NCBI RefSeq assembly: GCF_036417845.1
Contig: NC_089979.1
Coordinates: 115,539,415-115,603,414, forward strand
Direction: 5' to 3'
DNA length: 64,000 nt
Origin: Apteryx mantelli
Taxonomy: Eukaryota; Chordata; Aves; Apterygiformes; Apterygidae
A program made the position numbers and the translations under genes. The notes under the pieces were generated by a model. It worked only from the letters and a program-made list of their open reading frames with translations, made no database searches and was not told the origin of the DNA. This document shows positions 14,031 through 51,497 of this stretch, piece after piece. The stretch's first letter is position 1, and each line of letters opens with the position of its first letter.

Positions 14031-14550
14031 GAATCACAGAACAGTTGAGGTTGGAAGGGACCTCTGGAGATCATCTGGTCCAACCCCCCTGCTGAAGAAG
14101 GGTCATCTAGAGCACATTGCACAGGATCACGTCCAGGCGGGTTTTGAATATCTCCAGAGAAGGAGACTCCACAACCTCTCTGGGCAACCTGCTCCAGTGC
14201 TCTGTCACCCTCACAGGGAAGAAGTTTTTTCTCATATTCAATTGGAACTTCCTGTGTTTCAGTTTGTACCTGTTGCCTTGTGTCCTGTCGCTGGGCACCA
14301 CTGAAAAGAGTCTGGCTCCATCCTCTTGACACCCTCCCTTTAGATATTTGTATACATTAATAAGATCCCCTCTCAGCCTTCTCTTCTCCAGGCTAAACAG
14401 GCCCAGCTCTCTCAGCCTTTCCTCATAAGAGAGATGCTCCAGTCCCCTAATCGTCTTTGCTGGACTTGCTCCAGTAGTGCCACATCTCTCTTGTACTGGG
14501 GAGTCCAGAACTGGACCCAGTAACTGTAACTGTAATTGTGGCACCTCAAA
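14031..14550 (-). mobile_element. CR1 LINE fragment with ORF2 C-terminal remnant, copy C
   Basis: A longer CR1 copy lies on the minus strand. Its minus-strand reading retains the C-terminal part of CR1 ORF2: [20 protein letters not shown], then [45 protein letters not shown] and [20 protein letters not shown]. These are hallmark CR1 motifs. The 3'UTR part (GGTTGGACCAGATGATCTCC on the minus strand) runs to the tail at about 14031. The reverse transcriptase domain is missing, so the copy is dead. The remnant is still largely readable, suggesting moderate age. Confidence 0.93.
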
Positions 14551-16299
14551 ATATTTTTCCTGCCTCACTTGCTGCCTTAATATATATGATCAAGTAATGG
14601 ACTGATTACGATTTGACATATTACCACATATTAGCTGTGTCACAGTAGCAAAACTCTTAGCCTGCAGCAAACATCAAGTCATCTACTTAACCTACTCCAT
14701 AGTGGATTACCTTAAATAGCATTACATTTGCCTCATACAAAGCACAGGCAAACAGATATTTAACTCAGATTACCAGATAAACTGATTTTGCCTCTGAACC
14801 TTTAGCAAGATGATTTCAGTGAGTTTTGACCTGAGGCCAACTGTTATGATCTGGGATTTTAAGAGATGGCAACGACTCAGTCTCTAGCCTCAGATTAGGT
14901 CCCAGGAAAGGCTGTTAATAAAACTCACAAAAGGCCCACAAAGAAGCAAAACACACAAACAAACTACGGTCCCACTGAATGAATGACAAAGGTTTTCTCA
15001 CATCTTACCTGCCATTTCATGACATCTCAGCCAGATGGAAATGTTGGATTTAGTTTATGAAGAACAGAAGCTGCTTTTTTTTTTTTTTTTGAGAAATGTA
15101 TCTGCAAGATTATATTATTTTGTTGCTGAGTGCTGCTTTGTGGTGGAATGGTTGCTGCAGTCTTTCCATTGCCAGTAAACCTAAAAAAATTGGCGCATGA
15201 AATAAAAATCATCATAAATATTATACATCAGTGGCATGACATGCAAAAGCTAGATTATTTTGTTTAAGTCTTAAAATAAACACTCAATCTTTGCAAAATG
15301 CTATGACAATTAAACAAACAAAAATAATTTTCCAGGATCTGAAGTTACAATAGCAGCCATTTATCCGAATGCAAATGAGAAATGAGACATGATCTTTTGT
15401 CCCAAAGCAGTAAGATTTTACACAGTAGTGCCTAAAACAATATTGAAATAAATAATGCTTTTGAAATCATATTACATTGTTAAATAAATGCTAAAATTTT
15501 TAATCCTCTTGAAAAAGATAAGCCCTACATCAGTAGCTTCCAATGATTCCTCAAAGCGTAACTGGTGAAAACTTCAGAAACCACTACATGAACTAAGTGC
15601 AGTGAAAAACTCATATATGAGACAACACTGGCCTACAGATGCTTTCTTATGACTGCTTTAGTCTTACTCTACTTTAGAAGCATACAGTGCTGTAATAACA
15701 ATTACTCTAATCCTGTGCTTTTGACATGCATTTTTTAAATACTGACATGCTAATTACAATCACATTCAATTACCTGACCTCTCTTTCTGCTATGATTTAG
15801 TTTGTGCATATCACTCAGCACTTAAGCAATCCCAGAAATCTCAGGTACTCTTGAACTTCAGCATGAAGCTACAGCAGCTTCATTCTTCAATGTGTAAGAA
15901 AAAGATCATGGCTGGGGCAGCAAATTGCAAAAACCTGCCACCAGATTCAGCTTTCTGGTGGTGCAGGCACTCACACGTGGTGGACAAGTGCCTTGCCCAT
16001 TGTTTGTTGGGTAGCATGGCAATTCGGGCCCCCAAAACACAGCAGGAGCTTTGTAATAGCACAGAGGCAGATCTCTCCGGGCCTGCCCCACAGCCAACAC
16101 GTGCCTCCCTGGGCACCAGCCTGCCCTCAAAAAAAAAGGAAAAAAAAATTGTCCTTTGGATGTTGCATTAGCAGACACAGCCCTGAATTTAATCCCTCTG
16201 CCCCCAATGGACATGTATTTGGGCCTCTGGCAAGCATGGCTTGGTGCCTCCATGATGGCACACTAGGCCCCACGTGGAGGGGGCCCATCACCCCCCTCA

Positions 16300-16854
16300 C
16301 CCACCCCTGTGAGACCTGCGGGCCGCCCCCCGCACCCCTCAGCGCACCCGGGGGAACACGACAGCCTCCCTCCCTCCCTGCCAGGCCAGGCCGGGCCGGG
16401 CCAGGCCCGAGGCCTCCACCCCAGCCACCGCCATGTTGCCCCCGGGGCCTCACCCCTCCCTCGCAGCCCCGCTTTGTAAACCATTATGGCACTGAGCGGC
16501 CCCTCCTCCGTAGTGTTTTGAGGGCGTAACGCCCCACGCGTTATTTTCAAACCACCGGTGGGGGGGGGGGGCGTGTGTGTGTGGAGGGAAGGGGATGAGC
16601 CGCGGGCAGCCAGCTAGGGACCCCGCGCTCTCCTCCCGGCCGCGGCCGCGGGGAGGGGAGGGGAGGAGAGGGGAGGGGAGGGGAGGGCGGCGCGGCGGGC
16701 GGCGGAGGGGGCGCTGCCCGGCCCCGGCGCGCCCGGCGGAAGTCCCCGCTTCGGCGGCGATGGGAAGTGAAACCGAAATCCGGAGCGGGGGGGCGGGGAG
16801 CGAGGCGCCGCCGCGGCTTCGCCTGCTGCCGCCGCGGCCTGGCCCGCCGCGCCC
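16300..16854 (+). promoter_or_regulatory. RP9 CpG island promoter and 5'UTR
   Basis: GC content and CpG density rise sharply from about 16300 and fall after about 17290, so the island covers the RP9 promoter and first exon. A run of G-tracts (GGGGAGGGGAGGGG and similar) at about 16650-16688 is a candidate G-quadruplex on the coding strand. No TATA box is evident. The long open frames on either strand are composition artefacts. Confidence 0.7.
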
Positions 16855-19800
16855 ATGTCCCACAAGGCGCGAAGGGGGGAGGAGGAAGAAGAGGAGGAGG
16901 AGGAAGAGGAGGAGGAGGAGGAAGAGGGAGAAGCAGCGAGGAGCAGCCAGAAGCGGCACAAGAGCCATCACGAGCCGGCGGCGGGCGGCGGCAGGACCCA
17001 GGACCGGCATGAGAGGAAAAGGAAGAAGCGGGAGGCGCAGCAGCTCCAGAAGCTCCAGCACCTGGAGTCGTTGTAAGGAGGGGAGGCTGCCCGGGGCCCC
17101 GCCGCTCCGCTCCGCTCCCCCCTCCTCGGGGGCCGGGGGGCCCCGCCGGCCACTGCCCGGCCGCCTCTGTCCGTGCCCCCCCGGGGCAGGGGGCCGCGGA
17201 GCTGGGGCGCGGGGTTTCCGCGGCCAGTGCGGGCCTCGCAGCCGGGCGGGCAGCGGCTCTCCTGCCTGCCTTGCCCTGGGGCTGCCCGTTTGTGCTGACG
17301 CCGTTTTTACTGTTCCGCGGTGACTCACCTGCGTTCTGCGCAAATCCAGCGTTTCCTCGGTTTCATGCTGAAAGCTGCTTACCTCCGGAGCGCCAAATGC
17401 AGAAACTACCTTTTGAGCAGTAATAACTGCAGTGCTTTAAGTTCCCTTTGCCACACCACGTATTTATTGCGTGTTTGGCATGTTCTGGACCGCTCTGGGG
17501 GACGAGGCCGTCGTCGGCCACTCCCTGGGTTTGCTCAGGCCGCGAGGCCTTGAAATGGGCCTGTGCATCGCTCTTCAGCGGGGGCATTTGTCCCGTCTCT
17601 CCAAAACGCGGCCCGTTTTTATCCGTGACTAGGTGTGTGTTTCCTTTGCTGGCCTGTTGTGTCTGCCTTGTCTCTGTACCTGGCAGCATGGAAGTTTTAA
17701 GGTGTTACATTGTTCCGCTTGTCTCTGTTTCAAAGCGTCAGCTGCAAACCTCCTTTCTGACTTTATAATGATTTCTTGGGAAAAGGGAGTCTCTTCTTGC
17801 AAGTGACTCTTAGATGTCAGGGAGTTGGCAGCAGAGAAGCAGAAGTTGTTCAGCAGGTTTTTACTAGTGTGGTTTAAAAAAAAAAAAAAGATAAAAAGGT
17901 TTGAGATAAAAGACTCCATTAGTAGTCCACAGTGCTGTACAGTAAAGGGTATATGCCGTTTTATTGAAAGGGGTTGAATGGAATAGAAAGATCAGGAAGT
18001 TCACTAGAACATAATTTTATCCTTTCCTAGAGGAAGTCAAATTTGTTGTGAAATGCTATAAACAGCACTCAAAAAGCTGTCATTGTTAGAAGGTCAGTCC
18101 TGTTGTATCTTGGCATTTAACTCCTAAGTGCATACAGTTTTTCAGTTACTGTTTTACATAGCATCTGCTTGCTATTTAGATTTTAATAAATTTTATCTTT
18201 ACTGTCAGCTCCAGAGAAGTACTGCAGAAAAGATAGTAAAATTGTCAGCAAGATTCTATCTTTAGGTGTCTCATACAGAGAGAGGAAGAGATTTATTATT
18301 TTATACTAAGTTTGGCTGGCAAAGCTATATTTAAGGAACAACCTGATTTGATGTTTTCAGCTGACTATATCTGTGATTCAGCAGTGCTGGAGTAAAGAAA
18401 CTTGGATTAGTGAGATCTTGGGTGGGGGTGTGCTATAGCTACAGAAAAAGATGAGAGAACTGTGAATTTATGGTAACTGAAGCTGAATCAGATGCACGAC
18501 ACATTGCTGTAAAGCAGTGTGATTAAAATAGCTGGTTCCACACAAGAATATGAATCTGAAGGATGTTCGCAAAAGATGCGTGTTGTGATATGACAAAAAC
18601 TTGGCAGTTTGGAAACACTCTGGTTCAATCTACTTGCATTCAGGTATCCGTGTTGTGCTATAGTTCTTAATGATTATTGATTGAGTAAATTTTAAGGGAA
18701 AATGTGAGGTGAAAGTTTTAACACTATACCATTGAAATGCTGTATTTTGTCAAATTATTTGTCCGTGCTAAGTTGCAGAAGGCAGACTAACTATATTTTT
18801 ATTGCTTTTCAGCTATGAGAAACCTCCCCCAGGGCTAATTAAGGTTAGTAAATATATTTTAGTAAATTTTTAACATTACAAGGGGTTTTCACACAACCTG
18901 TCTTTGGCCATCTACCTTAAGTTAGGTTATCTATATAAATTACAGAGAGAAGTAGGTGCTCCCAGAGGACAATTCAGAACTCCTCAGTTACAAGCAGGTC
19001 AAGGGTAAGGAAAAAAAAAAATGAGGTAACATTACTGAAAGAGTCAGCTATTTTGGATCCTTTATGTGTTATAAGAAAAAGAAATGGTACAGAGAAAATA
19101 AGGTCCATATTAAATGAGGGCCTGTACACTTGGAGTATTAATTTTTATAAAGTTTTTAAAAAATGATTTTTATTGTCCCTATCTTTTTCCATAGGAGAAT
19201 GAAACAAAACCGGAAGACTGCATACCTGATGTACCAGGCAATGAAAGTGCACGAGAATTCCTGGCACATGCCCCAACAAAAGGGCTTTGGATGCCTTTGG
19301 GAAAAGAAGTCAAAGTTATGCAGTGTAAGGTTGAATATATTCCAGACGTTACTGGACCATCCTTTTACTCTGGGGGAGGGCAGGATGTCTGGCAGACAGA
19401 TGATGAGGTCCAGGTAGACTGGCATCATATTGGTATGAAAGCAACCAGCATCTTGAAGGCTGTAATAGCCTTACATTTTATGAAAGTTACATTTATCAAC
19501 ATAACACTTGTATCTCTGTATCTGTTCCAACAAAATTAAATATTTTCAATATAAATACACATTTTTTTTTTTTCTATTCTGAGCTGGCTCAGAGGTGCAA
19601 TTCACTGCTGCTTCTTTTTTTTAAAGGTTGGAGGTGTAAACGTTATGGACACAGAACAGGAGATAAAGAATGCCCATTCTTTATTAAAGGCAATCAGAAA
19701 TTGGAACAATTTAGAGTAGTGAGTACAAATACTGTAGTATTATTGCTTGTATTTTTAATACTGATGGGTAATTTTGCAAGTGAAGAGAAGCCTATTAGAT

Positions 19801-22651
19801 GATGCTCTATTAAGGACTTTTCCTCTGTCTCTAGTATAATATAGATGCCGAAAATCTTCTAATAAAAAAAAAAGCTACAGATGTGGTTGGATGTTTGACT
19901 ACTTTGCAGAAAATCTGCTCTTCGAGAGGAAAATAATTAATATTTACATTTAAACTGAAAATCTTTGAGAAGCTGTTTCAACCATTATATTCAATCAACT
20001 GTTACAGCATAAGTTTTTATCATAAAATATCAACATAACAAAAAAAAGTTTAGTCAAGCTTGAGCTGCCCACATTACAGCCGCTTCAAGCCTTCTGCTCT
20101 CACTGTGAACAACCACATCATGAAGCCTGTTGTCTAGGTCTGTAGTCCAGTCATTGTCTACAATTCTGATCTCTTGCTACATGAGGCTACATCTTAGTTT
20201 TGCAGATTCTTTCTGTGTTCCTGTGTCTTTAAATATATCTTTTCCTATTGTTCGGCACTGTTAAACTATATTTCAAATTCTCATCATTTTGTTTCTCATG
20301 TCCTGCTTTCTAGCCTTGAAAATGCAATCTGGACTCATTCTGGCCAATCATCATGCTACTGCCAATAGAATTTTTAGACCGTTCCCATGATCTATCCTTC
20401 ATTTTTTTTTCTCAGGCTTCTTCTCTCTTGCATCAAACACTTGCTTTATGTCCAAGGCCCCTCATGGTACTTTCCCAACATTTTTCATTTACTACTGAAA
20501 TTTCAGTGAACACTGTCAATCAGCATTTGACATCATCTCTTTTTTTTCTTTTGCTAAATTTCCAACAGAAATGATCACGCCTTCTTTTTGCTGCTTTCTT
20601 GCTTGGGATGAACTCACCTTAAATAGCTGCAAAGTTTACTTGCTATCTTCTTTCAAAACTATCTTTTGCTGCAATGCAAAATGTAAAAATTAAGAATGGT
20701 AGTAGGAGTGTCATAGGACAACTCATACCTCGTTACCTATTTGTCTTATATTCCCTGCTACCATATTCCTGCATGCTTGTATCCAAGCTTTTAAAATGTG
20801 CTATAAAGGCACAGCTGTTATTATTTCAAACTTCAATATTTATTCTGTGTTTAGCTATTCCTGTAGTATCTCTATAGGGATTTGTTAGTAATCTGTGATT
20901 GTAGAGAGAGAGGTAGCATAGCTAAGGAGAACCTCCTTCATCATGTAACTAGATAGGCTTTTTCTAAAGTAAAAAATTAGTCCAGATTAACCATAATGTT
21001 TGCCAAAGTCTGAGAATATGCTTGTTAATTAAGAGCTTGCTGAGTGTAATTCATCTTTTGATAAAAGCCTCTGTGTTAGGTTGCTTTTAGTTATTGTGTT
21101 GGTTTGTTTTTTCTTAAGAATTACAACAGTCAGTGATAAACCCTTTTCTTTACCAACACTGGATTTCTGTTTTCCACTTCCAAAGGCACATGAGGATCCA
21201 ATGTATGATATAATAAGAGAAAATAAACGTCATGAAAAAGAAATGAGGTGAGTCCCTGTAAAAGAAATGAGGTAAGTGCATCCCTGTAGTAAACTGCATT
21301 TTCAGTTTAAGTTTTGAACTTTGATAACATGTTACTAATTTAAAGTTTGTAGGTGAAATGTCATTGTAAGTTACTCACATCACTTCAGAACATCTTTTAA
21401 TGGGAGTTTCTTTATGTTAACAGACTGGTGCATTTCTACCTTCTTAATAATCTCAGTAGTATTTCCTACTTCTCTTTAATTCTATTAGCTTCTGTATTTT
21501 TTTTCCAAAACAAAATTTAAAGAGGAGTCACATTCATTTACACTGTAACTTTGAGGTACTTGGATTTTATTCCATTTTAGGCACCTAATAAAAACAGTCC
21601 AATTTTCATCAACTTCACTGAGATGTTTTCTAAAATTCTGTACACTAAGGTGCTTTTGGTAGACAGGTATGGATTTAGAAAGCTAGTTTCAGGCACCTGA
21701 TGATGCTCTTTATATGAAATCATTATTCAATAAACAGAATGGCAGAGTTTTTAACGCTTTCTTATCTGTTGTACTGCATCATTAAGAATACTGGACAACC
21801 TTTAAATTACAGGTAGCAGCACATACAGTGGTACTGCTGCTGCAGATAAGTTTTTTTTTCTTTTTTTTTTAAAGAAACAAATTCATGGATAAGATACTGA
21901 AGACAATAATAAAATAAGCAAGTAGTCTCTCCCTGTTTGCTAGGAATCCATGAAAGTACAAAGAATGTTGCCTCTCAAAGATACCTATGGATCTAAAGCA
22001 GACTCTACCCTCTGCTTCACTGACATTGTCTGTATCAGCAGGGCAATGAATTTTGTATCATAATCCCAGTAGGCATCCATGTTTGCATAAACATAGAACT
22101 TCCTATGGTGGTCTGATGATAGTTGTTGCCTCCGATGGTTTTGCATGCAAAAATTAAATTACATATTGGCCAATAACTTAGTCTTTCTTTGATATCCCAT
22201 GGATTGGAAAGTCTTTGAGAACAGGGTATATGCTTGTCTGAAAAGAGGTTGCTTGCATCTGTTTGTGAAAACTGTAACTAGAGTTGTAATCCAGCAAAAT
22301 AATGCAGCCCTTTGCATGCAGCTTCCATTAGTCAAGCTAGGAAGGGAACAGATGAAAGCTAGAATAAGTTATTATGTGTGGGAGAGTTAGAGAAGATTCT
22401 CATTCACATTTTTAAATGTACTCAGGATACAGCAACTGAAGCAGCTCCTGGAAGACTCTACCTCAGAAGACGATAACAGTGATGAGAGCAGTGAGGATGA
22501 TGATGAAAATAGCAGCAGCTCCACTTCCTCAGAATGTAGAGATAAACACAAGAAAAAAAAGAGAAAGAAAGAAAAGAAAAAAAAAGAAAAGAAGAAGAAA
22601 AAGAAAAAGCATAAATCTTCTAAATCTAATGAGAGGTTGGAATCTGACTGA
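16855..22651 (+). CDS. RP9: RP9 (PAP-1), splicing-associated, PIM1-binding protein
   Basis: Six coding exons give 252 aa: 16855-17072, 18813-18843, 19195-19324, 19627-19718, 21186-21247 and 22426-22651, all bounded by GT and AG. RP9/PAP-1 is a nuclear protein linked to pre-mRNA splicing and is a partner and substrate of PIM1 kinase; human missense changes cause dominant retinitis pigmentosa. Residues 9-24 are a pure glutamate run absent from the human protein as I recall it. QQLQKLQHLESFYEKPPPG spans the exon 1/2 junction and WMPLGKEVKVMQC ends exon 3. C127-X2-C130-X4-H135-X6-C142 is a zinc-knuckle-like motif formed across exons 3 and 4. DPMYDIIRENKRHEKEMR is in exon 5. Exon 6 encodes RIQQLKQLLEDSTS, an acidic/serine stretch and a lysine-rich tail ending KHKSSKSNERLESD. 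Human RP9 is 221 aa; the excess comes mainly from the N-terminus. Confidence 0.96.
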
Positions 22652-28091: not shown

Positions 28092-28097
28092 TTTATT
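28092..28097 (-). terminator. Candidate polyadenylation signal of bucky ball
   Basis: An AATAAA hexamer on the minus strand (TTTATT on plus) lies about 215 bases beyond the bucky ball stop codon at 28315-28313. It is the first canonical signal I notice at a reasonable distance and would give a short 3'UTR. Other signals further left are possible. Confidence 0.4.
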
Positions 28098-28312
28098 ATT
28101 TAAATAGTGGGTGTGCTATTTACAAAAGGTGGCTTAATTTAGTGTTAAATACTTCATTCCATTTTTTTAATAGCATCCTCAGTCTTTACAGTGTTACTTC
28201 TTACCCTTTAGGACTGCACAGCAACTTACAAAATATACAAGAGTAATTAACTTATGGATTTACAGAAACTTCAGATACAATTGCATTCCCCCTCCTGCCC
28301 CAATATTTGCAG

Positions 28313-31300
28313 TTATCTTTTCTTATAGAGTGACCTTCTGGTTCCACGTCCTTAAAGGAAAAAAAAGAAAAAAACAATCTTGAGTTACACACTCTGCCTC
28401 CAAACAATGTATGTCAGTTTGCTTCCAAAGGAAGACTAGACATCAATAACTGGCTTTTCTTATTGCAGGAGAGGACACTGGTGGTTGAGATTAGAACTAT
28501 GTACTCAACTTCCCAGCAAGGATGAACTCTGAAGGAAGGGTGCTGGACCAGTATAACAGAACAATAGGAGTTCCACATCAAACAAGCATGTTTTCAGTGT
28601 GCTCTGTAACTACACTGAAGTTTATGGAGGCATCCAAGACACATTGACTACTTCCAGGGAAAATATAGCAGATAATTGCATAATTACAAACTATCCCAGC
28701 TACTCTTACTAAAGGAGATGAGAAATTAAAGGTATAACACTGCCATTTAAATAATCAGACTTGAGGACTGACAACAATTTAGACTAACAGGACACTTCAG
28801 TCATTTTAAGTTGTTTCAGACTCTAGAAATATGAGTACTCCTCTGCTTAATATTGTGTTGACCGAGAAAAAAGGAGCATCTTTTCCTCATGTTATTTCCT
28901 CATTGGATATTCTAGTTAGCTTTAGTATGCCAAATTGTTCTTTCCCAGAAGAAAGTCTGATCTTTAAGTAGCTTCTTATGCATACTGATCCTTTTTGATT
29001 TATAGCCATTCTATAATCTCCCACAGATGCACTAAAAGCTTATTATTGAACCTACTTAGTCAATGTGATTTGCCCCTCCAATGTTCTTCACCTTCCTCTA
29101 AAATAGCAACAAGGTCCTACTCCATAAAGTTTAAGTTCTTTAGAACTATTTATACACATTTGTGATGCATCATATTGCAATATTTTGGCCAAGACAGTTC
29201 TGTAGTTTAGAGAAAGGCATGCACTGCAAGAAGTGACCTAGGACCCAACATTTCAGTAGTAAAACAATCTGGAAAGCAACTAGACCAAAATAATGTGCGG
29301 GTTTTTTTTTTAAAAACTGTAACACGTTCAATGCTACAACACTATTCACAGCAAAGTGAGTGAGTGTTCAAAGTTTAACTTTTTCTCTCCTTATTTTGTT
29401 TGCATATGCTGTCATTTCACAGATGATCCAATATCCTCACAGATCAAACTGAGAAACATTTTTCCTTGGGATGGTAACAAACTATTTAAGAGTCATTTTT
29501 GTAGCTATATACCAACCTTTGCGTACATTACTTTTAGGCATCTCCCACACTTCCATTTCTTCCACCTCACATCTTGTGTCTCTGCGTTTGGAAGGGGGCT
29601 TGCCTATTCTTTTCTTCTTTGGCTTAACCAAAGGCAGGCAATCTAAATAGCCAGATACAACCAAGTCACTAATAAAGCAAATTTAAGCTTGATTTTCCCC
29701 TATTGCTCTCAAGAAATAGTATTTTTTCCCTTCCCTGTATATTGCTCTGTACCCATTTCAGCAGCAGCTAAAACTGACATTACATCTGCCAAGCAAAAAC
29801 TTTATGTCTGCAATATTTAGTCACTATGTAACCATGACTCTGGCTCATTATATTTTGGGATATAACTTCCATAGACCTTAATGTGGCAGAAAGAGCCCAG
29901 TGAGGGTTGGCTAATTCCGCTCCAGTTCACCATTCAAGTGTTCAGGACTAACTGATTGCTGTTCAAGTCAAGTGACTCAATTCACCTATTGTCTTAATAA
30001 AATGACTTGCCACTCCGGATCTAAGTAATGCACTGCAAGTGTCCAGTTCTAGAAGTCAAATTTAGCATGTGATATCATTACTAAAGCAACATATTTTGTT
30101 TAGCCAGAACCCCTTACTTGAGGGGCACTTAATTTAAATTAACTTTGAAGAAACTACAGTCCTAAGATAAAAGCCAGGTTTTATAAAGGTAGTATTTTAG
30201 TGCTTCTGAATCTCAGGAAGTGAGATTCATTGGCATGAACACACCATTTGGAAGAAACGGATTCCCACTTATCTAAAACCAAATGCGATAGCTTACTCTG
30301 ACTACGCTGGGAAAGGAGAAAATAATGCATAGCCCAGCACCCTCAGTCTGCTCTATCATCTGAGACTTAAGAAAGCAAGGGACATGCTGAAAGTTAAGTT
30401 ATTTTACAAGCATTTTATTTTTATGAATTGCTGTAAGGAATTACTGAAAATTCTGCTAAAGTTGAGAGTTTCCAACTTTGATGGGGCAGACCAGCTTAAA
30501 AGCATTTTGATGAAGTCTGTACCAAATTACTAATACAGAAGGACATAAGCCTTCCCATGCAGGAGACAAACCCCAAACCCTTACTTGCTCAAGCAGGAAA
30601 GCAATACAGAGAAATCAACACTAAAGAATATTCTGCTGGGCAGTTGATGCAGGGACCCTGATGTATAATATCACTGAGCTAAGGCCAACAAGGGAAGAGA
30701 AATAAGTTATCAATCTATTCTGAAGATAACTTCATACTCAGTTACTTGATAGACTGGTCATGTAACACTTGAAAGCATGTGACCAAAGAGAATAGCAATA
30801 CTCAGAACAGGGTAAATGCTAGAGTTGTTCTAACAGCACTTAAGCTGAGAAATGCCTTTGAAGAGCATCTAGAAACAGAGATGAACTTTAAGTAGATCTT
30901 AATTACAAAGAAAAACATTCACTTTAGAAAAAAAAATCTATAACCTTTTACTTTTACAGAATAATTTTGACTTCTTCCTCTTTTCCTTAACCATATCAGG
31001 TAATGAATAATCTCAAGATAATTTGACAGGCACCAAACTATAAACTTAGGAGTCTTTAGAGTGATTAGAGATCAGTTAGCATGCCCACATACATTAAAAC
31101 ACACACATGAACTTGGATCTGTCAGTTCAAGACATCAAGACAACAGTGATTTCTTAATAGAGAGATTTGTGCTCAGACTTTTAGCAATAACGGGGCAACT
31201 GTTGGTCCACGCTAGTTTCTCTGAACATTAGCCTATGTAGCTATAACAGATGACTTGCTCTATGTTCTACTCATCAGGGTTTGGCAGTACCACTGTGAAT

Positions 31301-34300
31301 GCACTTAAAAGAAGCATTAGCTGGGTAAAGAATTAATACTACTGTTTATGCAATAGAAGCTTTGCACAATTAAAGGCTTGGCCACATCAAGATTTCCCAC
31401 AGTATCTTTAGAGACAAACAGCTGCAGTACATCGTTATTCATGTATTTGAGTTGGATGTGAAACATCCTGAGAAGTATTGGACTGACAGGCCTTTTCATC
31501 AATACCAGTGCAGTAAGAATTAGTTTTATTACCTTCAAATCTTATTAAATTGCAAGCTGTGGTATTTTGTATCATATCCTTTTGAATATTTAAAAAAAGA
31601 GAACAAAACACACTGAGGAAAGAAGTTGTACCTTGTTCTTTGCTCTTGGCTGGAGGTGAGAGACTACTATGTATTCTGCTGGTAAATTTGGGTTTAGCAC
31701 CACTTCTAATCCAAAACTCTTCAGCTGGTATCACCATGTTTTCCCTTAACAGTCTTCCTAAATAAGAAGAGTTGATTTCAGGTCAGTATCTAGTTTTGCT
31801 AGTATTAATACGCTATTTTAGCTACAATACAAGGTTAAACAAAGGCAACCACTGAATCTAATTTAAGTCTGTTAAAAACCAAGAAGATAACTTTCTAGAG
31901 ATTCCACTTCACAAAAATTAACAGCAGCTTCAGATTTAATTATAGAAAATAAAACTTTAAGAACACTAACCATGTTATTAGAACTGGACCAGCCTGTTTT
32001 AGATGCCTTTCACAATACAGGACAGTGTATGAGAACAGCAGCCACAAGTGCCTTAGTAACCAGTTATGAACCTTGACTATAATCCTGCCAATTTCAACTA
32101 ATATCCACCTTTTATTAAATGGAATGTTCTTTTCCAGACCAAATTTGATACAATTTCACACTGATTTTTATGAAAGTATAGCAAAACCTTTTGCTAACAG
32201 TGGAGCAGCAGTAGCCAAGATAAAGAAAAAAATAATGATTTGACACTCCAGCTGTAGAGAATATAAACTATACAAGGTATGGCCATCAGGTTACAGGGAA
32301 ACAAGCCCTACTTAACCCACCTAACATGGGTGTGGAATAAGACAGTCAGAATGTTTGTATAGATTTAGATGATCAGTGTCCAAGATACCATTAAACAAGT
32401 GTAGTTCAAGTGACCTGAAGCTTATCAAACAAATAAATTGCTACTGAAGTCAGCATGATTAATATACTTCTATCTGACTCAAAAGAGAGTTTGATGTTAA
32501 AATCTGTGCTTTAATTCTCTGCTGGTTGTAAAAATGCAGAACCTTCATGCAACAAGCAAACTGCAGCAAACCCCTTCTGCCTCAAAAAAAATTCTTAAGT
32601 ACTCCTGGCTCTAAGTCAAACCTGAAGCTACCACATTCTTTGATCATTACAATTTGGAGTTACAATTAGGAGTTCCTTGTGTTTTCTAACTATTAACCAG
32701 CACCTTTTCCTCAGTGATTAGCTTACCTCCCAAGAACTTCTGTAGTATTCTCTTGTGTTCAAATCCCTCTTTTTTTGCTGTAGGCCTCTTTCTTCCATAA
32801 TACCCATAGTCACTGTATCCAACTTCATCCTGTTCCTTCCCTTTTGGCTTGTAAACTAGACCAATATTTTCACCAAGCCCACTACTAGTTTTTATTTTCT
32901 CTTGAGCAGGCCAGCTAATTAGTTGAGCTGGTATAGCTTTTTTAGGTGGTTTCCAAAGCACCTTCTGGCCAACTTGTCGGTAGACGCTTCCTTTATTAGG
33001 TGTCAAGATTCCATATGGAGTAGCTTCTTGAAAGAAATATTCAATTTCATCCACATCATCATCCTCTTCTTCATCCTCTCCATCTTCATCCTCTTCTTCT
33101 CCCATCACATAGTATTCTTCTGAGTCCTCAGCTTCTGACAAACTCTTAGCAGCTTTTTTCTTGAGAGAAAAGATTTTTTTCCGGCTAGAAGACCTAGGAA
33201 GGGTTCCCAGCTTTCTACCTTTACTGGAAGCCTCTTTAATCTTCATGCCTGAAGATTTTTGGACATCCTGGCTATCAAAACTGTTGATCTGCTCCCTTCC
33301 TACCACTTCATCTTCATTAAGGGACCCACCACTTTTAATTTTCTCTTTCTCCAAGCCCTCTGTACTTTCCTGGAAAGTATACATGCTTTTCTGAAGCACA
33401 TAGTCAGGGACAAAATAAGACACTGGGGCATTATCAAGTGATGAACCTTCCTCTCTAGAGGACATCTCCTCAGAAGAAAGACTGAGTACACTTTGACATT
33501 TCCGTTGTGGCAAACACACATTGTAGTTGTAGTTTGTGTCCATATTGTCCAAACAAGCCAGCCAGCTGTTAGAAGGAACATACTTCTCAACTGACTCATC
33601 ACACCAAATACTTTTATCAGTTTGACTTTCATTGGTTGCACTGTGGCTTAGATTCAGCTTTTTCTGCTGTAAACTCAAGTCACTCATTACCTCCATACTA
33701 GATGGAAGTAGTCCTGCTTGTTGCATAAGGCTGGACTCTTCGTGAGAAGTTTTTGAGCCTGTAGTTCTTTTAGAGCTAGATTTCTTGGCTACTAGCACAT
33801 CCTGTCTTGCCACTGGTTGATCAATGCTAACAGATCTGGCCAACTCTGCTATTTGCACTGCCATGGCTTCACCTGGAGGGGATTTTGCCCTTTGACTTGT
33901 AGTCCCCTGCTTTCCTGCATCCAACTTCACTTCATTATTTTGGACCTCCTTTTCTTGCATACTTTCAACACACTGTTTTGAAGGCAGAACAGCTTTTCTC
34001 TCATCTATGTAAGTTCCTGGCACCAATTTCTCCCCTTCATGAGGGCCATATATCATTCCTTCACACGAACTAACAGAAAATAAGTCACGCTGCACTATAT
34101 TCTCTGGGACTGGTTTACCACTTGCCACATCATACAAAGGAATAGTTTCTTTAAAGGACTTCCACAACTGAATTGCTGGAGAGCCATTTCCATATTCTAT
34201 TCTCACTTCTTCCTTCTCAAAAGCATAGCTTCCAGAAGGAAGGTTTCTATACTGTGTAGAGCTGGAAGGGCTCTTATTATGAAACTCTCTGTCTACAACA

Positions 34301-35531
34301 ATGGAAGATCCAGACGAATCTTGTTTCTCTGAAGTACTTTCAGTCTCTGTACCTATACCAGAAGAAACACAGGCCATATTTCCTGCATCACAACCTTTTG
34401 TTTCTATATGGGTATCTTGATGCTTTTTTGGCTTGTTTTCAGGCTGTCTAGGATCAGTCTGCGTTTCCTTTGTCTCTGTTTTTTTCCCAGGGGTACTATA
34501 GTGTCTAAATCGTGTTGCATGATAAAACATAGGGGAAGGTGGGGGAGCATTAAAATAAGGCCTTCTGCTAATTCTTGCATGCATTGGATGCTGTGGAACA
34601 AAAAATCCAGGGTACTCATGGAGTGCAACAGAATAAAATGGAAAATATGGATTTCCACTTCGGAAGCCTAGACAATGGGGTTAAAAAGAAAGAAAAAGAC
34701 AAATGTATCTTCTTTCCAAAAGAAATTATTCTGATTAATAATTGCTTGCATACACAGGGACCTTCACAAGATCTGACCCTTAAAGTAGTACACTTCAACC
34801 ATCAACACTTGAAAGCAAGTCTTGCACAGAAACCCCAGAAAGGGTTCCTTGTTATGGAACAGCTTATCTGGGCAGCTGCACTCTGCAATCAGAGTTTGAT
34901 TTTGTCCCTGGAGCATGCACTGATCAGCTTTCCATATTTTCTGCTATTTTACCCACCAAGCCATAGTATTGTCTTTAAAAAGACAGCTCCAGTTACAGGT
35001 AGCAATTAGCTTATGTATACTATTTACATTATATATTTAACAATACTGTTTGTGTGCTTTATTTGTATTTACACATATATATAGTGTGTGTACATTTATG
35101 AAGCTCATTTACACACACATATTCATTCTTAGGCATATTCTACAACCCTGTAAGTTACTTAATATTTTGCTTAGCTTCCATTCTGCAGAAACAGATACCT
35201 TTCAATCGCACTACACAGTTAACTAACACAAAAATTGGATCTTTGAAGACTAAAAGATTACATTAATTCCACTCAACTCTCAAAAAGCTTCTAAACATAA
35301 AAGCATACACACACACTGATCTCCTCCCCTCTAGTACTAATTTACGAAGCATAACTACTTTAGATGGCTTTCATTTACCTTACCTGGTGCAGGTACACAG
35401 TAGGGATTATATGCATGACTGAGGTACCACGGATTTGGAAAAGGCTGTTGTGCTGTTGGCTGGGCATAAAAAAAGGGTCTTGTGTGGTTTGTGGAATATG
35501 ATCCACCTTCTGAAGCTGAGGCAGTGTTCAT
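28313..35531 (-). CDS. BUC: Bucky ball / Velo1 ortholog, germ-plasm organiser
   Basis: Five coding exons on the minus strand join to 792 aa: 35531-35384, 34667-32727, 31757-31632, 29642-29517 and 28350-28313. In zebrafish Buc is a disordered, self-assembling scaffold of the Balbiani body and germ plasm; Velo1 is its frog counterpart. The N-terminus (about residues 14-112) matches the BUVE region: NHTRPFFYAQP, then PYCVPAPGFRSGNPYFPFYS, HEYPGFFVPQHPMHARISRR and RFRHYSTPGKKTETKETQTD. The middle is low-complexity and Ser/Glu/Lys-rich. Residues 572-590 are an acidic run, followed by a conserved-looking block (EIEYFF, ATPYGILTPNKG, GQKVLWKPPKKAIPAQLISW). The C-terminal exons encode ENMVIPAEEFWIRSGAKPKF, a basic KPKKKRIGKPPSKRR segment and an end GRGTRRSLYKKR. 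The first coding exon starts 16 bases after an acceptor at 35547, so a 5' non-coding exon exists. Reading through the exon 2 donor (GGAG|GTAAGC) gives a false stop at 32686. The last donor (AAAG|GTTGGT) is weak. Identity is strong; the function in birds is inferred. Confidence 0.9.
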
Positions 35532-35547
35532 TTTTTCTTTTTAAACA

Positions 35548-36805
35548 CTGAAAAAGATAAGTGATAAGGATTAACCACTTCAACATATTCTGTGTGACTT
35601 GACAATTTCATGCCCTGTGAGAATTCAACAGATATTTCTCTCCCTATCCTCACCTCTAGCCCAATGCAAGCAAACCTTTCCCAGAAGAAAAAAGCTACCC
35701 TCTAAATAAGAGGTAGAAAACTGATATTACTATCAAGTCAAAGATTTTAGTTCTCCTTTACCAAACAAGCTTTTACATACAACTCTCAGTACTTCAATCC
35801 AACCTCCTTCGGGCTTCTCCAGACCCCCATTTTAAAGCCACAAAACAGTTATAGGACTAATAACTTCAATGGAGCCTTATAGGCACATGGCCATAGAAGT
35901 AGTATACCAACCAATTAAAAGCTAACATTTTATCAATCAGTCTTGATCAACAAGCCTCTAAAAAAATAAACAAACAACTAGATAGAGGAGTGGAATACTT
36001 CACACAGTCAAAGGTTTGGTGTTTCATAAAAAAAGTATTTGTAGATGCCAACACATATGTTGTATTTGAGCTCACAGTAAGAGCTCTATTGATTCAATAT
36101 TCTTACATTAGAAGATGCTTTAAAACAGAAAGAGCTAACATAATAAACAAAGTTTTTCAGCAACACCGCAACTCCCATGCTTAAACCTAGCAACAGGCAA
36201 CAGGAAAAGCAAAAATCCCTACATTTAAGTTCACATTAAGAGCCATATAAAAAATTCACAAGACAGAATCCTCTCCCACATCTATGTTTTTCTTCAGTTA
36301 ATTCATACAGCAAGTTTAGCCCATTCCAAGGAAAAGATACAATGCTGTCACATACAATTTATAAACAAGAATAAAAGTAATAGGAGAACAGAGAAGATTT
36401 AGTGTTCACATAGGAAAAAGGCAGCAGTTCAATTATTTGGAGGACTTAAACACTTTGAAGTTACAGAAGTAAAGTTGAAGTTAAGACCTCTTACAGACTG
36501 GCACACAGCTCACGCCTAGATGATTTTCAAAAAGCTTTCAGGAACATTGGAGTCCTCTTCAGTTTCCATCTAGAACAGTCTGCCCAGCTCACATAAGCAC
36601 CAAAACCCTACAGATTCCCCTCACTCTACTAGACCAATGCCCCCAAAATGACTTTGGCAAACAGAGAAGCAGGAAAGAAAAAGAAAAACAAAAAACCCTA
36701 CAAAAACAATCTACTCCTCCCCCATTAGGGCCCCTCAAAACAAAGGTCCATGCTGCTGCTGCTTACAGCCCAGCAAGAAACTAGCTAAGCCCTCTTTCAG
36801 CTCAC
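35548..36805 (-). other. Leader intron of bucky ball (putative)
   Basis: This AT-rich stretch separates the first coding exon of bucky ball (acceptor TTTTTCAG ending at 35548) from a candidate 5' non-coding exon with a good donor at 36805. No coding potential or repeat is recognisable in it. Confidence 0.45.
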
Positions 36806-36880: not shown

Positions 36881-38149
36881 GGCTTTTCCATCAATCAGTG
36901 GGAGGAACAATCCAAACATGGGGATAGGAACAGCAGTAAATGCCTTCATCCTGTGTGAAGAAAGCTAATAGTTTCATCTTGCAGACATTTAAGTTACATC
37001 CCTAAGTCATTCCAATATATCCAATCTTTAGGAATATTTGTAACATTGGAACTTACATTAAGAAAACCATAGGTTTCAAAGGAAATTGTTATCAATATTC
37101 CACTTAAAAGCCCACTGTTAAGGACATTGTTTGTAGAAACAAAATACAGAAAGTAGAAGATTAAGTTTACATCCATTTTTTAAGTTTATCAGCTGCTCAG
37201 TCTGATTACAAGAAGCGATGCTCTTCTATCCTCACACAACTAATTGGACGGGTGACTGTAATTTTCTTGTATATGAACAAGGGAAATATTCGCTCTAGCC
37301 AAATATACTCTACCACGTGTAAACATGAGTAATTCATGAAATACATGGTTATAATTTGAGTCTGCCTGGGCCTTACAGAAATGAGAATCTGAGTTGCCTC
37401 TTCACAACTTGAGATAACCTCCCTGAATGACAAAATGCTATGACTGCCATTGGTTTTGGGGGAGATGCCAAGGGAGGAACGCAAAACCAATGTGTGATGC
37501 AGGTAGGTGAGTAACAAGAAAAAGAAGTGTGGACACTTGGACATGGCTTATAAATCTAGGTTGTGAAATTACTAATTCTATTGTTTCTTTGCATAATGTT
37601 CAGATTAACCTTGTCCTTTGCACTAAGATACAAATTATGAAAGGGGCTCTATCAGAGAAGAATTATTGATCTTGCTGTTCTCAGACTTCCTCAATCAAAT
37701 CTTGTCTTTTCCTCTTATCTTGCACTTTGATATCATTTCTGCCATTTGCCTGGGATTTTTTAAACCCTCAACTCCTAGATTAATCTGATTGAGCTTTCAC
37801 CTATTTTGAGTTATATTCTAGCCTACCTCTTGGTGGACAAAAACTGGAAAACACAAATGGACCCAAAGGGAAATTAAAAAAAAAATTAAAACTCTGTAGT
37901 TTTTTAAAAGTTGATTATCTCAGGATTTTCCTTTTCCTTGGACTTCAGACTTCTCCCCTTTCCCTTGCCCTGTTGTTTCCTCCTGCTACCGACTCAACCC
38001 CTCAAAGTCTCAGGCTGCATTTGGTAAAGGCAAACCTGGGCTCTGCAACTCCGGCACTTGGCCAAATGACGTTTTAACTGTACGGTCTCTAGGCCCTAAC
38101 GAGGACCACAGGGGAAAGAAAAAAAAAAAAGAGGTTCTGGCAGGAAGAG
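36881..38149. other. Spacer between bucky ball and KBTBD2 promoter regions
   Basis: The sequence is AT-rich with no recognised exon, repeat family or RNA gene. It separates the candidate bucky ball first exon from the CpG island that probably starts KBTBD2, so the two genes are arranged head to head over about 1.3-2 kb. Confidence 0.5.
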
Positions 38150-39320
38150 AGGGACGATGGCGAGCGGAGCGGAGCCGCCTGCTCTCCCGCCTTCCGACCG
38201 CCAACCGTTAAGCGCGCAGCGGTTCTGGGCGCAGCGAGCCGCTCCGCCCAGCAGGGGGCCTCCGGCGCCGCCAGCCCGCCTGGCGCGCTCTGTTTGCCGC
38301 GCAGGCGCACTCGCCCCCTGCGGGGACCCTCTCCCGGCCTCGCCTCGGCGCGCTCCTGCGCAGCGCGCGGCGGAAGCGCCCGAGCGGCCGCCGTTGCCTT
38401 GGCGCGCGGGCGCTTGCGTAGGCAGGGGAAGCTCGGGGGAGAGGAACAGGAAACGGGGGCGGGCCGAGGCTCGAGACAGGGCGCGCGAGGCTCATTCCCC
38501 CCCCCCCCCATGGTCACCGCTCCGGGCATGCGCAGGGGAGGCGGGCGCCAGCGCGCGGCGCATCGTAACGGCCGCCGAGCGGAGGTGATGCTGCTGGCGA
38601 TGAGGAGGAGGAGGCGGAGGGCAGCGCGCCTGCGCGCGTAGTGGCCGCCGCCTCCGCAGCCCGGGGGGGACCGGATCCTCCGCCCCCTGCTTCCCCCCTC
38701 GCCCCGTGCCACCCGCCCTCGGGACGCTGAGGCCGAAGAGGAAGCGGCGGTTGGAGGTTTGTTTGGGGCGATGGCGGCGGCACCCGCGTCCCCCCGCGCC
38801 GCGAGGCGGCCGGCCGGCCGCCCCAGCCGGGCCCGGCCGCGGAGCCGTTTACCGTCTCGTCGCCCCGCGCCGCGGCCTGTTTGTGTGTGGCGGGGGGCCA
38901 GCCAGGCCCTGGCCGTGCGGCGGCCTCGCCTCGTCCCGCCCCGCCGGCGGGAGGCCCGCGGGGGCTCCGCGCCCGTCGTGCCCTCCTCTCCCCCCCCGCC
39001 CGCCTGGGCGCGGCTCCGCCGGCGGCCGCTGCGGCCCCAGGCCCCGCCGGACACCGGCGGAGACCCGCGAAGGGGAGGCGGGGGCGCCCTGGGGAAGGCG
39101 GCGAGGTGGTTGCTGCGGCCGCCTCGCCGCCCTTGGCCGGGGCCGGCTGCTGGAGCGCCAGAGCTGGGGAGAGCCCGGCCGGAGGAGGGGAGCGCGCCTG
39201 GCTGCCGGCGGTGCGGCGGCCGCCGGCGGGCCTGGCCCCCGCCGTGCGACGGTACTCGCGCAGCGGCCCCGCTTCCCTTCCTTAGGGTTGGCCGGGGAGC
39301 GTCTTGAGGAAGGAGGAGAG
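38150..39320 (+). promoter_or_regulatory. CpG island, probable KBTBD2 promoter and first non-coding exon
   Basis: This is a sharply bounded GC/CpG-rich block. Four NRF1-like palindromic motifs occur: GCGCAGGCGCAC (38299-38310), CCTGCGCAGCGCG (38355-38367), GCATGCGCA (38526-38534) and GCGCGCCTGCGCGCG (38624-38638). A YY1-like GATGGCGGC follows at about 38769-38777. Such a set is typical of a TATA-less housekeeping promoter. The KBTBD2 coding exons have an upstream acceptor at 45994, so a non-coding first exon is expected here; I could not fix its donor. The long open frames on both strands are composition artefacts. Confidence 0.65.
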
Positions 39321-39399
39321 GGAAGTGGAGAAATGGGGGGACGGGACGGCACGCCTGGGTACCGGGAAGGGGAAGAGCGTGTTCCTCCTCTAGTACTAT

Positions 39400-42300
39400 G
39401 CCGCGGGCTGGAGGGGACTGCGGAGTGCGTCCTGTGGTGGTGGGAGATTAGGGCTTCCAGCGTTGAGTTCTCCTCTTCGGCCCAGCACGTAGGGATGCTT
39501 GTAATGTGAATGTTTCTAGAGATGCCCGAAAGGGCGGATAGGATGTGGTCTTCCAGGAGAACAGCGCTGCAGTGGGCACTGCTGTTTCTTATAGTTGACC
39601 ACCTTTTCTTGCCGATATGTCTAGATGTGTGTACGTATAGTATTAGGATCCATAGTGACTTGGGTAGGGGGTTCAGTATGCGTGGATTTGAAGATTAAAA
39701 TAATTCGTGGTGAACTTTTATAGACTGAACATATGTGTAGTAGAGAATGCAAGATAGCTTTGAAATCAACCTTTTGCATGCATAAAACTTTCCAATATTC
39801 AGTATTTCTGTTATTAAAAACACTTACTATAGGGAATAGATACCTGCTGCTTTTGAAATAACTTTAGTTATGATTTAGAAATAGATTTGGGTAGCATTTA
39901 GCACCTGCATTTTTAGAGGTTTCCCTGCAAAACCATGGCGTGGTTTTTTTGCACTACTTCATGATCACAGTGGACCTGAATGGTATTCCCTCCTCCCCTT
40001 CAGTTTGTCAGTTTGTTTCAGAAACTCCAATGCCTGCCTACAGTGGAAATTTCTGTGAGTGACTGGAGTTCATCTAGGATTATTTCCACTTGAATTTTTT
40101 TAAGATGGTGCAGTTAGATCATTCAAATACCTTATCAACTTAGTTCAGTTTTTCTGAAGTGTATTAGGGGAAATAGATAATTTTCAATATTTCAGATACT
40201 CAGATAAATCATGTAACCTCACAATCTGGGCACAGGCATTGCACCTCTTATCTAATGATTTTTGCATGTGGAATAAAAAGGCCCAGTTATACAGGGTGCT
40301 GTGTAACTCTAGCATCTTTCAGGAACAGACCAAAAGTGAGGAAAGGACTTTACTGCTTATTTAGTTATTTTGACTAAATTTTGGACTTTTTTTTTTGAGG
40401 CATGCTTTTTAATTTTGGTCATGGGTTTGTGAAATTGACCAAAACTGGTGCAAATCTTAAAATGTCTTGTCCTTAATTTAGTAGCTGTTCCATTTTGAGA
40501 ATAAATGGATGTGAATGAGGTACCCATTATATGACTCTAACCTTTCAGGAAATAACTTATGATTACTTAAGCTACACTAATTATTAGCCTAATTTTTTAA
40601 TTTAGAGATGCTTGAATTTGTAGTTTAAATATTCGCTATGAAACAGTGTGATGATGTTCTAGGGAATGCTGTACACTTGTGAATTGAAATTGAAGTTGTT
40701 AAAGGAAAAAGACTCGCTTTACTAACATTCTAGAGTTCAGTGAAAATGCACTTGTTCTGTACATTCATGATATATGGCTGGACCTTATTAGAGACATCCA
40801 TGGCTCACTTTTTTCAAAGGTTAATTTACCAGTGCAGGTCAATTCTTTCCACAAGACAGAAATGCCCTTGGGGATGGAAACTGTTCCTATGCTCTACTTG
40901 GAAGGCCAGGTGCCAGGTTAAGTTGTTGGTTTATCTTGTGCTAATTTTATTTCTGGGCAGGTTTTCCCTTTACTGTATAACTTCCTTTAGTAGCAGAAAA
41001 ACAGGAAAAAAAACAGGTACTGAGGAGTGCACTGTGACCAAACATGTTGTTAGCCTGGAGTCTGACACTTCCAGTCTCTAGTTTCTGTCTAGTTTCAGGA
41101 AGGTCATCTACCTTGAAGTCGTAACTCCTGTCCCAAGCATAATATGTGTTGAAAAACTTCCTGTATGAAATGAAAAGTAATTTTCAAGATAAAAACAGTG
41201 TAGGAATAAGCTTGTCCTTTCTGAGTTTTTTGAGATTTCGTGTCATTGTCTTATCAGATATAATCTCCTTGATACCCTCAAGTTTCTGGATTCCAGTGTT
41301 TCAATGATAGCTTTGATGGCTTCAGAAAAGAGAAAAACTTCCAAGTCTGAAACTGCTTCATCAATTACTTATTTCTTTTTCACTACCAAAGAGGCAAATT
41401 TGATACATTACTTGGGAACGTAGAGCTTCCAACTCCTTTTTCTCCTTTATTTCCCATCTTTGAGATCTGTTGGCTAGGTGTATTGATTTAAATAATTGTT
41501 TTTAATCTTTCTTAGCATTTGTATACCCCCTTTCCTCATGCCGTGAGTTTGTATACACATTTTGAAACACATTGATTTGTAATTCAGCATAGCCTTAATA
41601 CTAAACTTGGTACTTTTATTGATAGCTGGGAGGATCACTGTCTCTACACATTTGAATGCTTGTGTAGTTTGGCATATGGTCGTTCAGTTCTTAATTCTGA
41701 CATTTTATTGTGTTAAAAATAGTGAATGACTCACTTCTGTAGACATGTTTTTACTTGTGATTTGTATGAAGCTGCGCTTGGATGGAAACTGGAATTTGAT
41801 TAAAAGTGCACAAAAGTACCATTTAGAACTTTTTATTAGTTAAAACTTGCTTAAATGAGCTGGATATCCAGGCAAATAAGTCCCCCCCCTCAACAAAGTG
41901 GTTTATTGAAGTGTTAATCGTAGTTAGTTAAGTTAGTTTCAGAGGTGTTTAGATGGTTGAAGATGCGGATAGGAACCTGCCTGTGGAACTTTAATTAATG
42001 TCTTTGTTTCCCAGAATTTTATTGGAAGTTAGGCATCTAATCTGGCTTATTCAATAGGATCTTTAGAGGAACGTATTTCTTTTCCTACTATCACAATATC
42101 TAAGTTATCTAAGGAAATGCATGTCTACACATCTCTGTTCTGCCCTTCTTATTACTTGGAAAACTAAAGTAATTTTTTTTGTTTAAACCATAAAAAAGCT
42201 TAAGATGACTGTAGTTCAGTTGAAGATTATATTATATCTATGTCTTTCATATTTCCCTGCTATTCAGATAGGAAATAATCGATAATTTTTTTCACAACAT

Positions 42301-48528: not shown

Positions 48529-51497
48529 CAAATTTTCAATATGACTGTTAATATTAAATTTGAATGCATATAAAACTCAAAATGAATTTCACCCATTTAA
48601 AAGAAAATATCAAGTACCCGATTTACAGTATCAGAATCCAGTTAGTTCTTAATTGTGTTGTGATTAGAAAGCAGAATGGGTGATAAGTATACAAAGCATT
48701 ACAAAAAAAAACCCTTTCTTTTTAAGTTACCTTTCTACATTTCAGAAAGATGTAATAAGGATATTCAACGATTCTTTCAGAACAAGTCTGATACAGTTTT
48801 TTCTGACACTTGATTTTGTCTAGAAACTTGACATTTACTGCATATTGTTAAGAATGGTGTATAAGAAATGCTTGATGTAGTGTTAGTGCTTGTCCCTCTT
48901 TCTGGGCAGGCTTTTGCCTTCGCTTACAGCATGCCTTTTGATAAAACTAAACTGTTAGTTGTGTAAATCTGCTTCTTTTGTTTTAGAATCTAAGATCTGT
49001 CTGCATATGTCTAAGCAGTATTTTCTGAAGGAGGTTTCTTCCCTCGTATCATTACCTAACATAGCAAAGTTTGAAATTTCAATCATTACAGTTCTCTGCT
49101 GATTAACATAAAATAGTATGCATAAATATAAAATACTCCTATCGAAGGCACTGATGATACTTTTTGAATGTTCTATACAAATGCTATTTTAAATGCTAGA
49201 TGGAAGCCTAAGGTAAATAACTACTCAACTCCTGTAAATACACAAGCAAAAAAGAATATCTTTTAGAGTAAAATCACTGAAGACTTACAGATGGTATTTA
49301 AGATTGCAGTGTTTATTATTGGTCCTTGTCTTAATATGTATATTTCTCTTCAGAGCCATGTTCATGAGCGGGCTGAGTGAAAGTAAACAAACACATGTAC
49401 ATCTGAGGAATGTGGATGCAGCCACTTTACAAATTATAATAACTTATGCATACACGGGTAACTTGGCAATAAGTGACAGCACGGTAGAACAGCTTTATGA
49501 AACTGCCTGCTTCTTACAGGTAGGAAGGTTTATTTTGAGTTTGAAATAACTGCTTCTAATTTCTAAACTAATTTTTATTTAATTTCTCTTAGACGCTCCT
49601 TGCTGTTTAGTTGTTTCAAAATACTCTTGTTCAGTTTGCTCAGTAGTGTGGACAGCACTCGCTTGGCAGATATATTTTGCACGTGTGTCCCTCCTGACTT
49701 TAAGGTCCTTTTGGAGGGTGGAAGTAAAACAGTGCACTCCTAACATTTAGATAATTATTTTCTCAAAGGGACATCATCATGAGATGTACTTAATCTGTAT
49801 GATTCAGTTAAGTCACCCCTGTATTCTTGTGTGTGTGTAGTATTCCAGGCTTAAATTTGGTTGTTTACTTCTAAGTGTGGGTATTTTTACCTACTGCTGG
49901 TAAGCAAAGGAATAGATTGTATGCAGTAATACTTAATGTGTTTTTTTTCTTTGTGTTATAGGTAGAAGATGTGCTACAACGATGTAGAGAATACTTAATC
50001 AAAAAAATTAATGCAGAAAATTGTGTGCGTCTGTTAAGTTTTGCTGATCTCTTCAGCTGTGAAGAGTTAAAACAGAGTGCTAAAAGAATGGTAGAGCACA
50101 AGTTCACAGCTGTGTACCACCAGGAGGCTTTCATGCAACTGTCTCATGATCTACTGATAGATATTTTAAGCAGTGATAATTTGAATGTGGAAAAGGAGGA
50201 GACAGTTCGTGAAGCTGCTATGTTATGGCTGGAATACAACACAGAATCACGATCACAGTATTTGTCCTCTGTTCTTAGCCAAATTCGAATTGATGCACTT
50301 TCAGAAGTAACACAGAGAGCCTGGTTTCAAGGTTTACCGCCTAATGATAAATCAGTGGTGGTGCAAGGACTGTACAAATCTATGCCCAAGTTTTTCAAGC
50401 CCAGACTTGGTATGACTAAAGAGGAGATGATGATATTCATTGAAGCTGCTGCTGAAAACTCTGGTAGTCTTTATTCTTCTGTCTGTTACAGCCCACAGGC
50501 AGAAAAAGTTTACAAACTCTGCAACCCTCCTGCTGATTTGCATAAAGTTGGAACGCTCGTAACTCCTGATAATGATATCTATATAGCAGGTGGGCAAGTT
50601 CCTCTGAAAAACACAAAAACCAATCACAGTAAAAGCAGCAAACTCCAGGCTGCCTTCAGAACTGTGAATTGCTTTTACTGGTTTGATGCACAGCAAAACA
50701 CCTGGTTTCCAAAGACGCCAATGCTCTTTGTTCGTATAAAGCCATCCCTGGTCTGCTGTGAAGGATACATCTATGCAATTGGAGGAGACAGTGTAGGAGG
50801 AGAACTCAACAGGAGAACTGTGGAAAGATACGATACTGAAAAAGATGAATGGACCATGGTAAGCCCATTGCCGTGTGCATGGCAATGGAGCACAGCAGTA
50901 GCAGTTCACAACTGCATTTATGTAATGGCACACAACTTGATGTATTGTTATTTTCCCAGGTCAGATGCTTGGGTAGAAATGGCTATGAGACAAACAAGTA
51001 GATGTTTTGCTTCAGCTGCCGCTTTTGGTGATAAAATATTCTATATTGGAGGATTGCATATTGCCAGCAATTCTGGTATAAGACTCCCAAGTAGTACTGT
51101 AGATGGGTCTTCCGTAACTGTGGAAATCTATGATGTGAATAAAAACGAATGGAGAATGGCAGCTAATATCCCTGCCAAGCGGTATTCTGACCCCTGTGTT
51201 AGAGCCGTTGTCATCTCTAATTCTTTATGCGTCTTTATACGAGAAACCCACATGAACGAGAGAGCAAAGTATGCTACCTATCAATATGACCTGGAACTTG
51301 ATCGCTGGTTTCTAAGACAGCATATATCAGAACGTGTGCTGTGGGACTTGGGGAAAGACTTCCGGTGCACTGTAGGAAAGCTGTATCCATCTTGCCTTGA
51401 AGAGTCCCCGTGGAAACCTCCAACGTATCTCTTTTCACCAGATGGAGCTGATGAATTTGAGCTGGATGGGGAGATGGTTACTTTACCACCTGTATAG
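46357..51497 (+). CDS. KBTBD2: KBTBD2, BTB-BACK-Kelch CUL3 adaptor
   Basis: Three coding exons (46357-46526, 49354-49519, 49962-51497) encode 623 aa, the same length as human KBTBD2. The protein is a substrate adaptor of CUL3-RING ubiquitin ligases; the known target is p85alpha (PIK3R1), which ties it to insulin and PI3K signalling. The BTB domain occupies about residues 25-130, with [29 protein letters not shown] and [15 protein letters not shown] follows at about 133-235 ([20 protein letters not shown]). The Kelch part shows repeats with glycine pairs at 322-323 (IAGG), 386-387 (YAIGGD) and 475-476 (YIGG), and tryptophans in DEWTMV and NEWRMA. The protein ends GEMVTLPPV. Exon 1 ends AG|GTAAGT in phase 2 and exon 2 ends CAG|GTAGGA in phase 0. 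The gene is tail to tail with AVL9. Confidence 0.98.
46527..49353 (+). other. KBTBD2 intron 2
   Basis: This intron runs from the GTAAGT donor to the TTCTCTTCAG acceptor. It is AT-rich with several T-runs and one long A-tract, listed separately. No gene or transposon is recognised. Confidence 0.85.
48493..48527. repeat. A-tract of 35 bases
   Basis: An uninterrupted run of 35 A residues lies in KBTBD2 intron 2. No retrogene or SINE body is visible on its 5' side, and there are no flanking duplications I can identify. It is probably a mononucleotide microsatellite, and its length may be affected by sequencing. Confidence 0.85.

Follow-up and report, generated by a model that had tools for sequence, protein, structure and literature searches.

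Structure of the gene

The window (the whole 64-kb stretch of DNA analysed here) carries on its minus strand, at 28313..35531, what we hold with very high confidence to be the avian bucky ball (Buc/Velo1) gene, the direct counterpart of chicken LOC420748. Five minus-strand exons, as originally predicted, join to 2379 nt encoding 792 residues and a stop codon, and all four introns have GT/AG borders and lie in phase 1. Splice sites were ranked among the 477 donors and 614 acceptors of the region with a simple matrix of splice-site frequencies.

35547..35549, minus strand: acceptor-like site, 16 nt upstream of the start codon (rank 11 of 614)
35384..35531, minus strand: coding exon 1, 148 nt, start codon at 35531, in-frame join (donor GTAAGG, rank 1 of 477)
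32727..34667, minus strand: coding exon 2, 1941 nt, bulk of the protein, no in-frame stops (acceptor rank 72 of 614, donor rank 2 of 477)
31632..31757, minus strand: coding exon 3, 126 nt, phase 1, in frame (acceptor rank 8 of 614, donor rank 60 of 477)
29517..29642, minus strand: coding exon 4, 126 nt, phase 1, in frame (acceptor rank 61 of 614, donor rank 23 of 477)
28313..28350, minus strand: coding exon 5 with the stop codon, 38 nt, in frame (acceptor rank 2 of 614)
28092..28097, minus strand: AATAAA, possible polyadenylation signal (pattern match only)

The coding frame of exon 2 is free of stops, whereas each of the other five frames contains 17 to 73, and the probability that a random frame of equal length and base composition would stay open is approximately 1.3e-20. 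Of the eight splice sites, four score near the top for the region, and the others (the acceptors of exons 2 and 4 and the donors of exons 3 and 4) are of middling rank. Because several sites are weak, exons 3-5 rest mainly on the agreement in length with the chicken Bucky ball cDNA, which measures 2379 nt (Klein et al. 2022, PMC9546911); the sequence by itself does not prove the small exons. The acceptor-like site at 35547 hints at a non-coding 5' exon upstream of the Buc start, and a second possible polyadenylation signal (ATTAAA, likewise a pattern match only) is found at 28171.

Genomic neighbourhood

The gene is placed next to KBTBD2, the neighbour that is diagnostic of Buc/Velo1:

49962..51497, plus strand: main coding exon of KBTBD2 in an open frame (511 residues match chains 113-623, 1138.8 bits)

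Skugor et al. 2016 (PMC5080839) report that buc adjoins kbtbd2, avl9 and lsm5 in the elephant shark, and they describe the region as conserved in teleosts, gar and coelacanth as well as in most tetrapods. In zebrafish, rnf31 and rnf152 flank the buc gene, which represents the buc1 copy, and the kbtbd2-adjacent copy is absent (PMC5080839). The zebrafish buc copy is therefore not located beside kbtbd2, whereas the window gene is beside KBTBD2 and thus in the ancestral setting, which makes it a co-ortholog rather than the one-to-one partner of zebrafish buc; co-orthology is at best the relation between the two.

Elsewhere in the window, a GC-rich stretch at 46-930 on the minus strand holds exon 1 of a gene for an FKBP-type isomerase, which we take to be FKBP9 (FKBP_C 21.2 bits at a cut-off of 21.1, FKBP2 E = 0.00078). 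Gene pieces at 16771-19802 on the plus strand, which we assume to resemble RP9, matched a zinc knuckle only weakly, under the cut-off of Pfam (E = 0.0053), and CIR1 likewise weakly (E = 0.0018), and the zinc-knuckle piece had no match in NCBIfam. Open frames at 13949-14589 on the minus strand had no match in Pfam and presumably represent the end of a CR1-type retroelement. A CpG island at 38001-39500, between Buc and KBTBD2 (GC 0.69 to 0.80, CpG observed/expected 0.87 to 1.00), could be the start of KBTBD2 and perhaps that of an upstream non-coding Buc exon. A tandem second Buc copy was looked for in the 64 kb and rejected; the only other tblastn match had E = 7.8. Rfam and tRNA scans found nothing.

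Features of the predicted protein

The N-terminal region, for which we use the motif name BUVE from the original prediction and the literature, and the acidic centre of the protein are encoded as follows:

35466..35489, minus strand: NHTRPFFY, residues 15-22, beginning of the aromatic N-terminal region
34453..34470, minus strand: KETQTD, residues 116-121, closing the N-terminal region
33016..33135, minus strand: acidic stretch, residues 561-600 (57% D+E, no K or R)

All the protein features that had been predicted were located, namely the motifs HTRPFFY (from residue 16), PYFPFYS (56), YPGFFVP (68) and KETQTD (116), the acidic centre and a basic C-terminal tail (residues 701-792, 28% K+R). Residues 1-104 differ in composition from the rest of the protein (21% Y/F/W, 17% P, 2% D/E and 7% K/R), so that the N-terminus appears, judged by composition only, prion-like, aromatic and charge-poor, which is a feature of Buc/Velo1. 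Such a composition fits the N-terminus of Velo1 and Buc, which has been described as prion-like (Krishnakumar et al. 2018, PMC6219760). The zebrafish BUVE motif comprises residues 23-136, with conserved parts at 24-84 and 114-128 (PMC6219760), and the blocks at residues 15-22, 56-62, 68-74 and 116-121 of the window protein are spaced about like these parts when positions, not letters, are compared. The aromatic N-terminus is shared with zebrafish Buc, which has 639 residues compared with 792 here; Xenopus Velo1, a named Buc homolog with a prion-like BUVE region, is likened to the window protein by description only. A match of the N-terminal motif letters to literature text returned only a paper naming the BUVE motif. 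No Pfam family was assigned to the 792-residue product at E up to 1, and its best match among solved structures (E = 0.18) was unrelated.

A charge-hydropathy analysis placed the protein narrowly beyond the boundary towards disorder (0.401 vs 0.416). An AlphaFold2 model of exon 2 alone (646 of the 792 residues, no alignment) had a mean pLDDT of 37.2; none of its residues reached a pLDDT of 70, and it showed no helix where the candidate Vasa-binding motif described below lies. Since alignment-free models are often poor, this is weak support for disorder. On these predictions, we count disorder over most of the protein length among the Buc-like features of the product.

Candidate Vasa-binding motif and comparison with Tdrd6 docking in zebrafish

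One segment of the central part of the protein was picked out by the residues and spacing of D379, R384, E386 and S389 of zebrafish Buc:

33424..33492, minus strand: candidate Vasa-binding motif, residues 442-464 (D changed to E)

In zebrafish Buc, Vasa binding maps to residues 372-394, for which D379, E386 and S389 are named, and R384, in a stretch that reads RDEM, served as a non-conserved control residue (Perera et al. 2021, PMC8533965). The residues E449, R454, E456 and S459 form the sole place in the window protein with the published spacing; three of the four are identical, including the one corresponding to R384, and the fourth is a D to E exchange, while the M and F following RDE in zebrafish are replaced by G and S. 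The pattern [DE]xxxxR[DE]ExxS, which was chosen after the candidate site had been seen, turns up in 0.8% of 5000 shuffled versions of the window protein, and looser forms do so in 5% (R.E) and 16% ([RK].E). The fit is suggestive, not proof, of a Vasa-binding motif. The motif is reported to be conserved in chicken (PMC9546911; PMC8533965) and to be present in Xenopus Velo1 (Perera et al. 2021, PMC8533965).

A difference from zebrafish Buc concerns the arginines used for docking to Tdrd6:

28343..28348, minus strand: sole RG dipeptide, residues 782-783 (1 in 792 residues)

The three Tdrd6-binding arginines of zebrafish Buc reportedly lie in RG pairs, whereas the window protein has a single RG dipeptide. 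According to a review passage, binding of zebrafish Buc to Tdrd6 occurs via three symmetrically dimethylated arginines. Tdrd6 docking is not a defining feature of the Buc/Velo1 family. If other birds share the single RG, Tudor docking in bird Buc may be reduced or may work otherwise. It is a tentative and rather doubtful idea that Buc in birds, with its one RG site in the tail, dispenses with the three-arginine Tudor dock of the zebrafish protein and that its condensates would be tuned otherwise, for example by the acidic stretch at residues 561-600 contacting the basic tail.

Comparison with chicken Bucky ball and identity of the gene

In chicken the gene has already been sequenced and cloned, and its product localised. 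Chicken Bucky ball (LOC420748, printed as LOC420478 in the title; XP_040518588.1) has, like the window gene, an intact frame of 2379 nt (the length was compared, not the letters), and its cDNA was obtained by RT-PCR from intrauterine embryos (Klein et al. 2022, PMC9546911). The locus number is printed in both forms in the chicken papers (PMC9546911, PMC11557578), and a name search can miss the gene. The first of these papers describes N-terminal and central conserved domains and the Vasa motif (PMC9546911), and the two together report condensation, co-localisation with Vasa, Balbiani-body staining and first siRNA tests (PMC9546911; Klein et al. 2024, PMC11557578). The protein was found with Vasa in the Balbiani body and in cleavage furrows (PMC9546911; PMC11557578) and also in granulosa cells; siRNA lowered chicken Buc expression, with the authors' remark that the mRNA data need verification (Klein et al.). 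The expectation that such a gene would be easily missed is not supported, as chicken Buc was cloned in 2022 and localised in 2022 and 2024 (PMC9546911, PMC11557578). Literature searches returned nothing on a zebra finch buc, and among the matches listed (turtle, lizard, quail, duck; avian since 2023) there was no avian Buc literature beyond Klein et al. 2022 and 2024. Since the chicken gene is known, the contribution of the window is at most a gene model and a further case for comparison.

The window itself shows the gene, with its frame, its location and the features of its sequence. We accept its identity as Buc on the intact frame, the cDNA length, the KBTBD2 neighbour, the N-terminal composition and the Vasa-motif fit; what decides the matter for us is the 2379-nt length, which equals that of the chicken cDNA, together with KBTBD2 in the neighbourhood. 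Frame, length and place next to KBTBD2 likewise bear out the original prediction of an open and well-spliced Buc/Velo1 gene. Given the weak sites at its tail (the donors of exons 3 and 4 and the acceptor of exon 4) and a frame of exon 2 that stays open past the donor until a stop that ends at 32686, exons 3-5 might be misjoined, or an isoform with another end might exist, in an otherwise correct Buc gene; the complete five-exon model matches the published chicken cDNA length exactly, which makes such an error very improbable. The presence of some weak splice sites would also be in keeping with a decaying or recently dead copy, but 792 codons without a stop (approximately 1e-20 by chance for exon 2 alone) and a length equal to that of the expressed chicken cDNA leave this reading with next to no probability, and we reject it.

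Possible role in germ plasm

Published work describes Buc/Velo1 as condensing via its N-terminus, binding and activating Vasa, and organising the Balbiani body and germ plasm. By analogy with fish, frog and chicken, the 792-residue product would be a mostly disordered scaffold whose aromatic N-terminus makes it condense in the young oocyte, and whose central block would bind and stimulate the helicase Vasa (DDX4). In the Balbiani body, the condensate would collect RNA and proteins of the germ plasm, and it would later be handed to a few embryonic cells. For the window gene, we infer condensation, Vasa contact and a germ-plasm role from these papers, and a role of Buc as germ-plasm organiser in birds appears likely.

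The suggestion that the gene is a candidate germ-plasm organiser thus stands, but not on the open frame that had been offered as evidence for it. Turtles retain buc yet use the inductive route of germ-cell formation, and some mammals keep the gene as well, so that an intact frame alone does not predict germ plasm. The accompanying statement that mammals lack a functional copy is right for primates, which have a pseudogene, and probably for rodents as a group, which appear to have lost the gene, but not for the Tasmanian devil, opossum and kangaroo rat, for which complete buc genes are reported (PMC5080839). An intact Buc gene could therefore be retained in the source bird for another role, germ-plasm organisation not being its main job. 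In line with this, functions outside the germ line are inferred by the authors who report the complete mammalian genes, expression of the buc genes of salmon is not confined to the ovary (PMC5080839), and chicken Buc is seen in granulosa cells (Klein et al.). That chicken Buc accompanies Vasa in the Balbiani body as well as in cleavage furrows (Klein et al.) speaks against such a retention for another role, which we regard as unlikely, and is in keeping with the germ-plasm role favoured here.

A single RG dipeptide, if common to other birds, would make the Tudor-docking mechanism of fish testable in birds. The question whether birds, like fish, have their inherited germ plasm organised by one disordered protein is of practical weight for germ-cell work in poultry.
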